Assembly (NCBI GenBank): GCA_021808525.1 | Contig: JAKBBK010000007.1 | Coordinates: forward strand, 16,335 to 80,334 | Length of the DNA: 64,000 nt | Reading direction: 5' to 3' | From: Pseudomonadota bacterium | GTDB lineage: Bacteria; Pseudomonadota; Gammaproteobacteria; Burkholderiales; Burkholderiaceae_C | Part shown: piece by piece, positions 6,543 to 11,337 of the stretch | How positions within the stretch are numbered: the first letter of the stretch is position 1 | Layout: every line of letters begins with the position of its first letter | Position numbers and translations under genes: made by a program | The notes under the pieces: model-generated | What the model was told of the DNA's origin: nothing | Databases searched by the model: none | The model's input: the letters and a program-made list of their open reading frames with translations, nothing else

Positions 6543-7217
6543 ATGCAGATCCCCCAAGCCGCGACCGATGCGCTGGATGCACTGCGCAACACCGTGCGGG
6601 CCATGTTCGGCCCCGACCTGGTCGCCCACGACTTCGGCCACATCGAGCGCGTCGAACGCAACGCCGCGCGACTGCTGGAAGCCGAGGCGGCCGACCGCTT
6701 CGTCGTCGGCGCGGCATGCCTGCTGCACGACCTGCACCGCATCCTCGAGCGCGACCGCGGTCACCACGTGGCGCCCGAGCAGGCCGACGCCGAGGTGCAT
6801 CGGCTGCTCACCGCGCAGGCCGTGGACGAAGCGACCATCCAGCATGTCTGCGCCTGCATCCACGCCACCGAGCGCTATCGCTGTGCCGGCGATCTCATCG
6901 ATGCGTCGGCGATGAGCGTGGAGCAGCGCATCGTGCGCGATGCCGACATGCTCGACGCCCTGGGCGCCATCGGCATCGCCCGCGCCTTCATGTTCGGGGG
7001 CCGACTGGGCGAACCGCTCTGGGTCGCCGGACCGGTCGGCGGCAGTTTCCGGCACGGACGCGCCACCTCGGTGGTGCACCATTTCCACGAGAAGCTGCTC
7101 GGGCTGCATGGAGAAATGCTCACCGACATGGGCCGGCGCATCGCCCTGGAACGCACCCGCCGCATGCGTGAATATCTGGATGCGCTGCGGGAAGAACTCG
7201 GCCTGAGCTCGTTCTGA
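6543..7217 (+). CDS. HD-domain phosphohydrolase, copy 1
   Basis: VAHDFGHIERVERNAARLLEAE...ACLLHDLHR...DADMLDALG HD signature; close paralog of 10468..11151. Confidence 0.85.
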   Translation: MQIPQAATDALDALRNTVRAMFGPDLVAHDFGHIERVERNAARLLEAEAADRFVVGAACLLHDLHRILERDRGHHVAPEQADAEVHRLLTAQAVDEATIQHVCACIHATERYRCAGDLIDASAMSVEQRIVRDADMLDALGAIGIARAFMFGGRLGEPLWVAGPVGGSFRHGRATSVVHHFHEKLLGLHGEMLTDMGRRIALERTRRMREYLDALREELGLSSF

Positions 7218-7262: not shown

Positions 7263-7779
7263 TCAGAGAAAAAACGCGGGCCCCGCGGACAGGATTTCCT
7301 GATGGTGCACGACCACGCTGTCCCGGTCGATGAGGATCACCGAGAAGCCCGGCGCGTCATGCAAACCAGGTACGTCGGTCGAACGGGTGACCAGGTCGAG
7401 CGCCACTTGATGATTGGTGGACTTGCAGCAGGAATCGCCCCTGCTCGGTATCGACGGCCTGCTGCAGAAAACCGTCAGCCTGCGAGTGCTCGGGCGGCAG
7501 CGCCTGCACCAGCACCGATCGGGCATCGTGATTGCCGGCCAGGAAGCGGCAGGGCATGGGCAGGCCCGCCGCCAGGTCCGCCGCCAGGTCCGCCAGTTGG
7601 CGATAGGCCTGGATCGTTGCTCCCTCCGCCAGATCCCCCGTGAACAGGCACAGGCGCGCATCGGCGTGCTCGTGGCGGATGGTGTGGATCGCGGCGGCGA
7701 GACGGTCCCTGGGCGAGGACCCGAAGAGCAGGCGATCGTCGCCAGTCAGGTGGATGTCGCTGATCTGCGGAATCTTCAC
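7263..7779 (-). pseudogene. metallophosphoesterase (3',5'-cyclic nucleotide PDE/CpdA-like), internally deleted and frameshifted
   Basis: VKIPQISDIHLTGD...LCLFTGDLAEG...FLAGNHD reads well up to GRFLLQ, then homology resumes in another frame as STNHQVALDLVTRSTDVPGLHDAPGFSVILIDRDSVVVHH; the GHxH metal-binding block is missing. Break near 7425. Confidence 0.75.
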
Positions 7780-7931
7780 GGTGGGACGTGGGCATGGCGG
7801 CCGTGCGAAAGGCATGGACTTGTGCCGGCCCTGCACCCGATTCTGCACCAACCCGCAACCCAGCCTGCAAGTCGGGCTTATCCCCGTACGTCTGCACGGG
7901 GTTGCCACGCGGCGCCATCATGGGCGCCACC

Positions 7932-8555
7932 ATGAGATCGCACCCAAGCAGCTCTCCATCTGCCGCCCCGATCGGTGAGACATCGGCCCAAGTCTCGGCT
8001 TACTGCCAGCTCTTTCCCTTCGAACATGAACGCGTCGCGCCGTTGCTGGCCGCGTTGGCCAGCGGTGACGATATCCACTCCAGATCCACCTCGACGTGCC
8101 ATCTGGCCGCCAGCGGCATCGTTGTGCAGTCCGGGCGCTTGCTGACCATCTACCACCCCTACCTTCGTCGATGGATTCAACCTGGTGGACACCTTGAGGC
8201 GGAGGAGGCCCCGGAGCAGGCGGCGCTGCGCGAAACCGCGGAGGAGACGGGCGTATCCGTGCGCCTGCACCCGTGGCACGCAGCCCATCGCTGCCCGGTA
8301 GACATCGACGTCCACCTTATCCCGGCCAACCCTCGCCGAAGGGAGGGCGCCCACCTGCATTTCGATTTCCGATATCTACGGATCTGCACATCCGCACCAA
8401 CCGGTACTGCAGAGCTAGAGACCCGTTGGCTCGACCGCGCGCAGATCAAAGAGCAGGGCATTCGCAATGCTTATGGACAAACTCGGCGAACTCAGCCTTC
8501 CGGATCTATTTATTTGAAAAATCAGAACATCGAGAAGAATACCCTACACGCATGA
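7932..8555 (+). CDS. Nudix hydrolase
   Basis: Nudix box GGHLEAEEAPEQAALRETAEETGV fits GX5EX7REUXEEXGU. Confidence 0.88.
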   Translation: MRSHPSSSPSAAPIGETSAQVSAYCQLFPFEHERVAPLLAALASGDDIHSRSTSTCHLAASGIVVQSGRLLTIYHPYLRRWIQPGGHLEAEEAPEQAALRETAEETGVSVRLHPWHAAHRCPVDIDVHLIPANPRRREGAHLHFDFRYLRICTSAPTGTAELETRWLDRAQIKEQGIRNAYGQTRRTQPSGSIYLKNQNIEKNTLHA

Positions 8556-8559
8556 GAAC

Positions 8560-9666
8560 ATGACGTTCTTTGACACGCTATTCCCTGACGTCAGAACAAC
8601 GCGCCCGTCCATTGCGATCGTCACGCACGCAGTCCCAGGCACTGACGATTTCATTCATGACATTCAAAAGAAATTTCGTATCGCATGCTTCATTCCAAAA
8701 CCAAATTCCATCCATGCAGCAACGCTCCGGCGCATTGAATCGTGCACTCCGGTGCTTTGCTATACGCGCCACATGATTCAAGACAATCACGAGACTTTCG
8801 CGCAAAAAATCGAAGACATGACGGGCGGCGAATCGCTCGCCGTGATGGATACAGGAGGCTACTTTTGCCCGTTGCTCCATACCCTTCGACGGCGGCTGGG
8901 GAGGCGGTTCCTCGGCGTCGTCGAGGACACGGAAAACGGCCACCAGCGTTACGAAACACTTGTTCGCGGAGCCAAGGGCGAAAATATTCCGTGCCCCATC
9001 GTCTCCGCAGCGCGAAGTCCGCTCAAGGCGCCAGAGGATCATCTTGTCGGGCAAGCGATCGCATTCTCCGCTGACGCGCTACTGCGAGAATGCGGCCAGA
9101 TCATGGCCGGTAAACTCGCTTGCGTCTTCGGTTACGGCAAAATCGGATCCAGTCTTGCCGAAAACTTGCGCCAGAGAGGCGCCCTGATGACAGTCATCGA
9201 CATCAATCCGGCCCGTCAAGCTCTTGCACTCGCTCATGGCTACAAATGCCCAAGGCACTCGGAACATCTTGAGGAAAGCCAACTGATTTTCAGCGCGACT
9301 GGCTGCCGCGCTCTTCGTCGACGCGACCTTCAACGACTACGCCCGGGTTGTTACATATTTACAGCAACCTCGGGCGACGATGAGATTGAAGATTACAGAG
9401 ATCTCCTTGGGGATTGCGCCCCTACGAATCACCCAAAAATAAGCGCACTCGGAAACAAACGGAGTGTCTTTATATGCAATAACGGAAACTCTGCAAACTT
9501 CATGCACGGCGGAGTCGTTGGGCCCTTCATCAAACTCGTTCAGGCGGAGCTCGTGTATGCCGCTGCCACGATCGCAGGCTTCAAGACTGGACGGATCACC
9601 GAAGTGGACCATGAAATCCGATGCATGATTGCGCAACGCTGGCTGGACTTCTATGCCCATCCCTGA
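8560..9666 (+). CDS. divergent S-adenosylhomocysteine hydrolase-like NAD-binding protein
   Basis: MDTGGYFCPLLH..., GVVEDTENGHQRYE (compare AHCY TEETTTGVHR), GKLACVFGYGKIGSSLAENLRQRGALMTVIDINPARQALALAHGY Rossmann motif, GNSANFMHGGVVGPFIKLVQAEL. Confidence 0.65.
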   Translation: MTFFDTLFPDVRTTRPSIAIVTHAVPGTDDFIHDIQKKFRIACFIPKPNSIHAATLRRIESCTPVLCYTRHMIQDNHETFAQKIEDMTGGESLAVMDTGGYFCPLLHTLRRRLGRRFLGVVEDTENGHQRYETLVRGAKGENIPCPIVSAARSPLKAPEDHLVGQAIAFSADALLRECGQIMAGKLACVFGYGKIGSSLAENLRQRGALMTVIDINPARQALALAHGYKCPRHSEHLEESQLIFSATGCRALRRRDLQRLRPGCYIFTATSGDDEIEDYRDLLGDCAPTNHPKISALGNKRSVFICNNGNSANFMHGGVVGPFIKLVQAELVYAAATIAGFKTGRITEVDHEIRCMIAQRWLDFYAHP

Positions 9667-10477
9667 GGATTCGCCGCGCGGATCTGCAAGCGAGAGGTTC
9701 GACGCTTTCGGTTTTGATTTGGCCCGCCATGACGCAACCATGCGATTCCTGAACCTTTATTTCGAGTATTGGCATCGTGTTTCCGCTGAAGGCCTGGAGA
9801 AGATTCCACAAGGACCGATGATTGCCTACGGGAATCATGCCGGTTTCAATTTGCTCGATGCGCTGATGCTGATGGTCGCAGCAAGGCAGCACGCCCCGTG
9901 CAGACGGCCGCTTCGCCTGCTGCATCACATCGGCATCGAAAAGATGCCGCTGATCGGATATTTCATGCAGCAACGCCTCGGTGCCGTGATCGGGCACCCC
10001 GCAAATGCCGATTACATCCTGGGAAAAGGAGAAGCCATCCTGACGTATCCGGAGGGAGGCTATAGCACCAGCCGCCCCTTCACCTCACGCCGCAGTCTTT
10101 CAGCGCTCGACCATTTTGGCGCCGGATTCTTGCGCCTGGCCGCACGAACGGGAGCATGGCTGCTGCCCGTCGCCACGGTGGGCTGCGAGGAGGCCATCCC
10201 GACGCTTGCGCTCTCGCGACGCCTCGGCCGCCACTTCAAGTTCGACCAATCGCTTTATCCGGTCGTGCCGCAAAGCGCCGTGACCCTGCTGCCCAGCTTG
10301 CTCGGCGTCCCGCTGCACCACTTCCACTTTCTCATGGGGTTCCCCTCGCATATCCGAATCCGCGTGGGCACTCCGTGGAAGCTGGGTCCGAATGCAGATA
10401 TCGAGGCGGCACGCCAGTCGTCTTACCACGCACTTGCAGGCATGGTGGCTTGCCTGGCGAACGAACCATGCCCTTGA
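9653..10477 (+). CDS. lysophospholipid acyltransferase-like protein (PlsC superfamily)
   Basis: AYGNHAGFNLLDAL (NHxxxxD-like block I), KMPLIGYFMQQRLGAVIGHP, LTYPEGGYSTSRPF (PEG block). Start uncertain (9629 or 9653); overlaps the upstream gene. Confidence 0.72.
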   Translation: MPIPEDSPRGSASERFDAFGFDLARHDATMRFLNLYFEYWHRVSAEGLEKIPQGPMIAYGNHAGFNLLDALMLMVAARQHAPCRRPLRLLHHIGIEKMPLIGYFMQQRLGAVIGHPANADYILGKGEAILTYPEGGYSTSRPFTSRRSLSALDHFGAGFLRLAARTGAWLLPVATVGCEEAIPTLALSRRLGRHFKFDQSLYPVVPQSAVTLLPSLLGVPLHHFHFLMGFPSHIRIRVGTPWKLGPNADIEAARQSSYHALAGMVACLANEPCP

Positions 10478-11151
10478 CTCGAGGCACCGCCCATACGCTC
10501 GAAGCGCTCGAGGCGCTTCGCACAAACGTGCACGCGATGTTCGGCCACGGCGTGGTGGCCCACGACTTCGCGCACATCGAACGGGTCGAGCGCAACGCCG
10601 CACACCTGCTCGAGATCGAAGCCGGCGACCCTTTCGTCGTCGGCGCAGCCTGCCTGCTGCACGACCTGCACCGCATCCTGGAGCGAGACCTCGGCCACCA
10701 TGTCGCGCCCGAGCAGGCCGATGCCCAAGTGCGCAGACGCCTGGACGAGCAAGGCGTCGACACGACGACCATCGACCATGTATGCGACTGCATCCATGCC
10801 ACCGAGCGCTATCGCTGTGCTGGTGACCTTATCGATGCGGCGTCGATGAGCGCCGAGCAGCGCATCGTGCGCGACGCCGACATGCTCGATGCGCTGGGCG
10901 CCGTGGGCATCGCGCGCGCCTTCATGTTCGGCGGCCGCCTGGGCGAACCTCTGTGGGCGACCGAACCGATCAGCGACACGTTCCAGCCCGGCCACACTGC
11001 GTCGATCGTGCACCACTTCCACGAGAAACTGCTGCATCTGCATCGGGAGATGCTCACCGACGAAGGCCGACGGATCGCCATCGAGCGCACGCGCTTGATG
11101 CACCACTACCTCGATGCACTGCGCAAGGAACCGGACTCCAATTTGCCCTGA
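10468..11151 (+). CDS. HD-domain phosphohydrolase, copy 2
   Basis: 227 aa near-duplicate of 6543..7217 (shared ADMLDALGxxGIARAFMFGGRLGEPLW); overlaps the stop of the upstream gene. Confidence 0.85.
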   Translation: MPLTRGTAHTLEALEALRTNVHAMFGHGVVAHDFAHIERVERNAAHLLEIEAGDPFVVGAACLLHDLHRILERDLGHHVAPEQADAQVRRRLDEQGVDTTTIDHVCDCIHATERYRCAGDLIDAASMSAEQRIVRDADMLDALGAVGIARAFMFGGRLGEPLWATEPISDTFQPGHTASIVHHFHEKLLHLHREMLTDEGRRIAIERTRLMHHYLDALRKEPDSNLP

Positions 11152-11205: not shown

Positions 11206-11243
11206 AAAGAAAACAGGCACCGACGATTTCTCGTAAGTGCCTG
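11206..11243 (-). terminator. intrinsic terminator downstream of tRNA-Arg
   Basis: Minus strand CAGGCAC-loop-GTGCCTG followed by TTTTCTTTT. Confidence 0.75.
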
Positions 11244-11260
11244 ATTTCTTTCAGCTATTT

Positions 11261-11337
11261 TGGTGCGCCCGGCAGGATTCGAACCCACGACCCCTTGGTT
11301 CGTAGCCAAGTACTCTATCCAACTGAGCTACGGGCGC
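11261..11337 (-). tRNA. tRNA-Arg (anticodon ACG)
   Basis: Minus strand GCGCCCGTAGCTCAGTTGGATAGAGTACTTGGCTACGAACCAAGGGGTCGTGGGTTCGAATCCTGCCGGGCGCACCA; full cloverleaf, loop CTACGAA, encoded CCA. Confidence 0.97.

Follow-up and report, generated by a model that had tools for sequence, protein, structure and literature searches.

We examined a four-gene operon in a 64,000-nucleotide stretch of DNA, hereafter the window, from a Pseudomonadota bacterium of the Burkholderiaceae_C lineage (assembly GCA_021808525.1, contig JAKBBK010000007.1, positions 16,335 to 80,334). The assembly is fragmented, consisting of 144 contigs with approximately 90% completeness. An open reading frame (ORF) check confirmed the head-to-tail set of genes that an initial annotation had described, all on the plus strand: a Nudix hydrolase (7932-8555), an NAD-dependent enzyme of 368 amino acids resembling S-adenosylhomocysteine (SAH) hydrolase (SAHH; 8560-9666), a lysophospholipid-type acyltransferase (9653-10477) and an HD-domain phosphohydrolase of the YpgQ/YedJ kind (10468-11151). 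Three of the products matched Pfam families above the cut-off (PF00293, Nudix, E 2e-11; PF00670, AdoHcyase_NAD, E 5e-13; PF01553, Acyltransferase, E 7e-10), while the match of the HD protein to PF01966 (HD, E 2e-4) fell slightly below it. The GC fraction was 0.606 for the Nudix gene, 0.547 for the SAHH-like gene, 0.606 for the acyltransferase gene and 0.658 for the HD gene, against 0.701 for the window. Pairwise ratios of nonsynonymous to synonymous substitution rates (dN/dS) of 0.14-0.46 across all four genes indicate that the coding regions are constrained.

The initial annotation had also stressed the tight coupling of the four genes, which held for the last two junctions. The acyltransferase gene overlaps the SAHH-like gene by 14 nucleotides when translation starts at the ATG at 9653, or by 38 when it starts at the TTG at 9629, and it overlaps the HD gene by 10 nucleotides. 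The gap of 4 nucleotides between the Nudix and SAHH-like genes, however, is not ancestral. Compared with three related genomes (G014, G017 and G009), the window's Nudix gene carries one surplus base near 8468, which shifts its stop codon and leaves the last 29 or so residues outside the family frame; in that frame the stop would lie at about 8517, approximately 42 nucleotides 5' of the SAHH-like start. The extra base could be a true mutation or an assembly error. The Nudix box itself (GX5EX7REX2EEXG) is intact, and its core is conserved among relatives. In G009, a Nudix gene with 72% DNA identity to the window's (L179 6431-7030) occurs without SAHH-like, acyltransferase or HD genes and adjoins a pair encoding AAA_21 and RloB-like proteins.

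We then characterized the SAHH-like protein. A scan with one genome per species yielded 231 relatives. In a 55-sequence tree, 12 true SahH proteins were united on a long, fully supported branch, which places the SAHH-like protein, as judged from sequence, in a separate family. The window protein fell in a supported group of seven together with Burkholderiales and a Spartobacteria metagenome-assembled genome (MAG), a composition that suggests transfer across phyla; several distant rows of the tree sit on long branches, and their placement is unsure. An AlphaFold2 model of the protein (pLDDT, the predicted local distance difference test score, 92) matched SAHH with a Foldseek E of 3e-19 and a VIA Z of 36.4 (root-mean-square deviation 3.1 over 353 aligned residues). 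The model thus predicts a complete SAHH fold with a Rossmann NAD domain, although the structural match stops at human residue 405, short of the C-terminal tail.

Residues were compared between 39 family members and 12 true SahH sequences, with human SAHH numbering and the roles that these residues have in SAHH. Equivalents of H55, T157, K186, D190 and N346 were kept in all 39 family members; K186 and D190, the residues of 3'-hydroxyl oxidation, correspond to K156 and D160 of the window protein. In contrast to true SahH, every family member had lost D131 (I, V, T or M instead) and carried Ser for H301, Ala for N181 and Arg for D182. H353 and T57 were likewise replaced in all 39, H353 mostly by Pro or Ser and T57 mostly by Leu or Val. 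The C-terminal tail with K426 and Y430, which in SAHH completes the NAD site of the neighbouring subunit, was absent from 39 of 39 (the compared rows had been cut to the matched region, although the window protein likewise stops at that point). New invariants had appeared in the form of a GGYF motif, Arg152, Glu125 and Ser271, and one may guess from its sequence position that Arg152, which belongs to the active-site motif, could bind phosphate. Arg152 and Glu125 are predicted to stand in for contacts to adenosine or homocysteine. This pattern suggests that the family retains the machinery for NAD-dependent oxidation of a 3'-hydroxyl but lacks parts needed to bind adenosine and to add homocysteine or water. 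Because D131, H301, H353 and the tail are lost, the protein is probably not an SAH hydrolase. An SAHH paralogue engaged in ordinary SAH recycling was rejected on the basis of the residues, the tree and a true SahH encoded elsewhere in the same genome. A viral origin was likewise rejected: no viral contig matched, and two phage records gave only partial, ahcY-annotated matches.

To examine co-occurrence, the loci of the best 80 of the 231 relatives were fetched, with crude scripts used for gene calling in Actinobacteria. In 71 of these 80 loci the SAHH-like gene had a Nudix homologue next to it in the same orientation, in most cases immediately downstream; because the loci were taken from the top of the scoring and Streptomyces is strongly represented among them, this proportion is not an unbiased species count. 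True SahH loci treated in the same way had a Nudix neighbour in none of 39 cases, and the comparison rules out grouping by chance. In a Bacteroidales MAG (L097) the Nudix and SAHH-like parts are fused in one protein; the fused gene is followed by genes for dCTP deaminase, a deoxynucleoside kinase and another kinase (7335-10814). HD genes adjoin the SAHH-like gene in Herbaspirillum (Nudix-SAHH-HD), Robbsia (SAHH-HD-Nudix), a gammaproteobacterium (L052/G290), a plasmid of Lactiplantibacillus plantarum (MFS-HD-SAHH) and a plasmid of Staphylococcus epidermidis. Within a sample of 369 genomes of the class, only the window's own contained the close Nudix and HD subfamilies. The acyltransferase behaved differently. 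Its link to the unit is confined to the genus of the window, where 3 of 28 genomes show it, and in the loci fetched from outside that genus no homologue of it lay next to the SAHH-like gene. Co-occurrence outside the window's genome is thus strong, and the core of the initial interpretation, which its absence would have refuted, stands. The conserved unit, however, is a Nudix gene with an SAHH-like gene, often joined by an HD or exporter gene, rather than the full set of four.

In relatives, the genes surrounding this unit point to small molecules derived from nucleotides, for which tailoring and export functions can be exchanged. Burkholderiales loci carry an additional EamA-like permease, one such arrangement being the Nudix-SAHH-EamA trio of the Paracidovorax type, and exporters of the EamA or MFS type occur in the relatives from Burkholderiales, Lactiplantibacillus, Staphylococcus and G387. 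Streptomyces and other Actinobacteria present at least three settings around the SAHH-like gene: regulators with a DUF218 protein; carbamoyltransferase, methyltransferase, kinases, epimerase and cytidylyltransferase; and glycosyltransferases with a Gfo/Idh-like oxidoreductase and a DegT aminotransferase. In a Levyibacteriota MAG, SAHH-like, Nudix and carbamoyltransferase genes occur together. The S. epidermidis plasmid cluster (L065 1298-11469) encodes orotate phosphoribosyltransferase, a hydroxylase, Nudix, a pyridoxal phosphate enzyme, HD, the SAHH-like protein and an MFS protein; literature searches found no 6-N-hydroxyaminopurine cluster matching it. Two gammaproteobacterial loci carry a protein of 446-475 amino acids directly before the SAHH-like gene, with a methyltransferase nearby (L052 2671-4011 and L053 11909-13336), and the copy in L052 matches no Pfam family.

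We next considered the HD protein and the mobility of the operon. The HD protein matched HD proteins in the PDB, including YpgQ and YedJ, with E values from 4e-16 to 2e-23 (5dqv, 2e-20), and the residues of its H...HD...D metal site (H32, H65-D66 and D138) are invariant. Downstream of the HD gene lie a strong hairpin, the probable end of the transcript (11206-11251, z -4.7), and, just beyond it, a tRNA-Arg gene (ACG; 11261-11337, minus strand), a probable integration hotspot. Two further members of the genus share the four-gene order: G014, where the copy is split over two contigs with 95-96% identity, and G017, where the SAHH-like gene is frameshifted. In G014 the operon is flanked on both sides by a 104-bp repeat made up of the hairpin and 50 bp from the 3' end of tRNA-Arg. 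The repeat of the tRNA 3' end upstream of the operon measures 50 bp (100% identity) in G014 and 40 bp (92%) in G017, and it is also present in G022 (50 bp, 100%). The left tRNA repeat was not found in the window; none of the four operon genes encodes an integrase, and the rest of the genome was not searched for one. At the same site, between tRNA-Arg and MurJ, G018 carries MazEF (L176 3520-4073), and G008 (L178 6089-7791) and G009 (L179 4373-6072) carry the pair of an AAA_21 ATPase and an RloB-like protein. As read from these sequences, the operon in this genus appears to be a GC-poor mobile cassette at a tRNA-Arg hotspot, and the tRNA-Arg/MurJ site a small hotspot for defence and toxin-antitoxin genes.

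Two relatives had lost the first three genes and kept the HD gene. In G022, the operon leader breaks off immediately ahead of the Nudix start and continues in the acyltransferase tail, with a CATGG common to both ends at the junction; this leaves a clean deletion scar (L174 6652-6733) and the HD gene alone. In G008, a remnant of the Nudix start precedes the acyltransferase tail and the HD gene, and the junction differs from that of G022. The solo HD genes have dN/dS values of 0.21-0.28, indicating purifying selection. A putative immunity role of the HD protein would explain why its gene was kept after the others were lost. The idea that HD is an unrelated gene of the genus captured by the operon was weakened, because HD partners SAHH-like genes in distant taxa and because the HD-only site of G022 derives from the whole operon by deletion. 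Between the window and G017 (L059), the synonymous divergence (dS) of HD was 0.13 and that of the adjoining acyltransferase 0.56, a difference that suggests recombination at the tRNA end. An HD paralogue with 79% DNA identity to the operon's HD gene lies on the plus strand at 6543-7217, approximately 3.3 kb 5' of it.

SAHH homologues have precedents in natural product biosynthesis. AgmF is an NAD-dependent nucleoside dehydratase of angustmycin A biosynthesis that makes no use of SAH and requires H56, D129, K184, D188 and H299 (PMC8599513). Like AgmF, the operon enzyme is an SAHH homologue in a putative small-molecule cluster, and it may likewise perform a redox-neutral, NAD-dependent elimination on a sugar. 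With residue equivalence drawn through SAHH numbering, the counterparts of H56, K184 and D188 are kept but those of D129 and H299 are lost, so we regard the enzyme as working like AgmF rather than as an AgmF. The partners of AgmF (epimerase, pyrophosphokinase, phosphoribohydrolase, phosphatase and transferase) also differ from the operon genes. Herbicidin clusters carry an SAHH homologue as well (HcdB/AnmB/Her4; PMC6794829), a likeness to a nucleoside-antibiotic cluster that we drew from descriptions rather than from sequence; the partners there are radical SAM enzymes, oxidoreductases and methyltransferases. Oxetanocin biosynthesis includes the protein OxsA. OxsA is an HD enzyme, and YpgQ hydrolyses nucleoside triphosphates (NTPs) and deoxynucleoside triphosphates (dNTPs) (PMC8177086); PenF, the HD enzyme of the Ara-A nucleoside-antibiotic pathway, has been compared with YpgQ and YedJ (PMC11592144). 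PenF and OxsA thus provide HD nucleotide hydrolases within nucleoside-antibiotic clusters, and the operon's HD protein is kin to YpgQ and YedJ but adjoins Nudix and SAHH-like genes. Nudix enzymes act in 6-thioguanine biosynthesis through the tgs operon of staphylococci (PMC7994395), which is similarly compact, lies on a plasmid in one strain and yields a nucleobase analogue, but lacks SAHH-like and HD proteins and instead encodes an efflux protein along with enzymes of sulfur transfer. Nucleotide hydrolases and an SAHH-like gene, the product of which would modify the sugar, are grouped across taxa in the manner of nucleoside-antibiotic clusters. Literature searches found no known cluster that combines SAHH-like, Nudix and HD genes and no published pathway for the mix, in agreement with the first impression that it fits no nameable pathway.

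On balance, we slightly favour the view that the operon is a minimal cassette, spread by horizontal transfer, for the biosynthesis of a small molecule derived from a nucleotide. Because the core pair is found again in many bacteria, the gene set probably produces a nucleoside-like compound that has yet to be described, and among the roles suggested at the outset, small-molecule biosynthesis with nucleotide chemistry was the best supported, whereas nucleotide-signal metabolism found no support. By analogy with the systems above, we propose a putative route. The Nudix protein, the HD protein or both would hydrolyse a derivative of a nucleoside triphosphate or diphosphate, yielding a (deoxy)nucleoside monophosphate or a comparable intermediate. 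The SAHH-like enzyme, with bound NAD+, would then use K156 and D160 to oxidize the 3'-hydroxyl of the sugar and acidify the C4' hydrogen; a 5' substituent (phosphate or hydroxyl) could leave by elimination at C4'-C5', or another sugar carbon could be changed, and the 3'-ketone would finally be reduced again, so that NAD+ is not consumed. A likely outcome would be an unusual sugar, for example that of a 4',5'-didehydro nucleoside. The acyltransferase may add an acyl group, a place that exporters or carbamoyl-, methyl- or glycosyltransferases would fill in relatives, and HD might in addition shield the host through hydrolysis of the activated, phosphorylated form of the product.

Several observations weigh against this proposal. 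The Nudix C-terminus is frameshifted here and the SAHH-like gene is broken in G017, so these two copies may be decaying. Most actinobacterial Nudix-SAHH pairs adjoin generic regulators (XRE-type and ATP-binding) and DUF218 rather than clear tailoring genes, the window's operon has no exporter, the acyltransferase is limited to one genus, and the retention of HD could reflect a general role in cleaning dNTPs.

In one alternative, nothing is secreted: Nudix and HD would clear damaged nucleotides, and the SAHH-like enzyme would recycle a damaged or unusual nucleoside. The activity of YpgQ on NTPs and dNTPs (PMC8177086), the intact Nudix box and the Bacteroidales neighbours (dCTP deaminase and deoxynucleoside kinase) all fit such house-cleaning or salvage, but the patchy, mobile distribution, with 3 of 28 genomes in the genus, the association of the SAHH-like gene with exporters and tailoring enzymes, and the way in which the otherwise rare close Nudix and HD subfamilies track it make this reading unlikely. 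We hold it slightly less likely still that the operon acts in phage defence or competition and travels in a defence hotspot, its enzymes making a modified nucleotide or depleting nucleotides within the cell so that phage replication stops. In favour of this are the low GC content and the mobility of the operon, its place in a hotspot that in relatives holds MazEF or the AAA_21 and RloB-like pair, and the fact that nucleotide-acting enzymes are common in defence. However, relatives adjoin exporters and biosynthetic genes more than defence genes, a sensor or effector protein is absent, and the SAHH-like protein, the acyltransferase and the operon's HD protein fit none of the PADLOC models. A known defence system was rejected, as PADLOC returned only a weak partial match to the Nudix protein and a weak DpdF match to the upstream HD paralogue. 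It is more doubtful still, to the point of being very improbable, that the acyltransferase marks a pathway that makes or remodels an unusual membrane lipid with a nucleotide-derived head group. The acyltransferase gene does overlap both of its neighbours and is under purifying selection, but outside the genus its homologue was found beside the SAHH-like gene in no fetched locus. Of the modified-lipid option in the initial annotation, at most a lipid decoration survives, given that the link of the acyltransferase to the unit is confined to this genus.

Extending the preferred reading of a biosynthetic cassette, we suggest, more tentatively, that Nudix and SAHH-like genes, with or without HD, could form the core of a widespread, unrecognized class of mini-clusters ranging from Streptomyces to lactobacillar plasmids. 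In this class a nucleotide-specific, NAD-dependent sugar eliminase would take the place of SAH hydrolysis, modified nucleosides would be decorated or exported by swappable enzymes, and HD would serve as the immunity gene. If so, a Nudix gene next to an SAHH-like gene that encodes K186 and D190 but Ser for H301 would be a marker pair pointing to hundreds of small, unannotated clusters for metabolites of the nucleoside type, with Actinomycetota, Pseudomonadota, Bacillota, Verrucomicrobiota and Bacteroidota among the phyla that carry them. Several database records now label these SAHH-like proteins adenosylhomocysteinase or SAH hydrolase. The reading would also add a new reaction to those of the SAHH fold and provide a testable case of an immunity-like gene outliving its pathway.

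Finally, between the upstream HD paralogue and the operon, the minus strand of the window carries a gene for an SpdA-like metallophosphatase (7263-7908) that is broken by an internal deletion of approximately 280 bp. The same gene is intact in G008, where it forms an ORF of 315 amino acids (L178 3899-4846).

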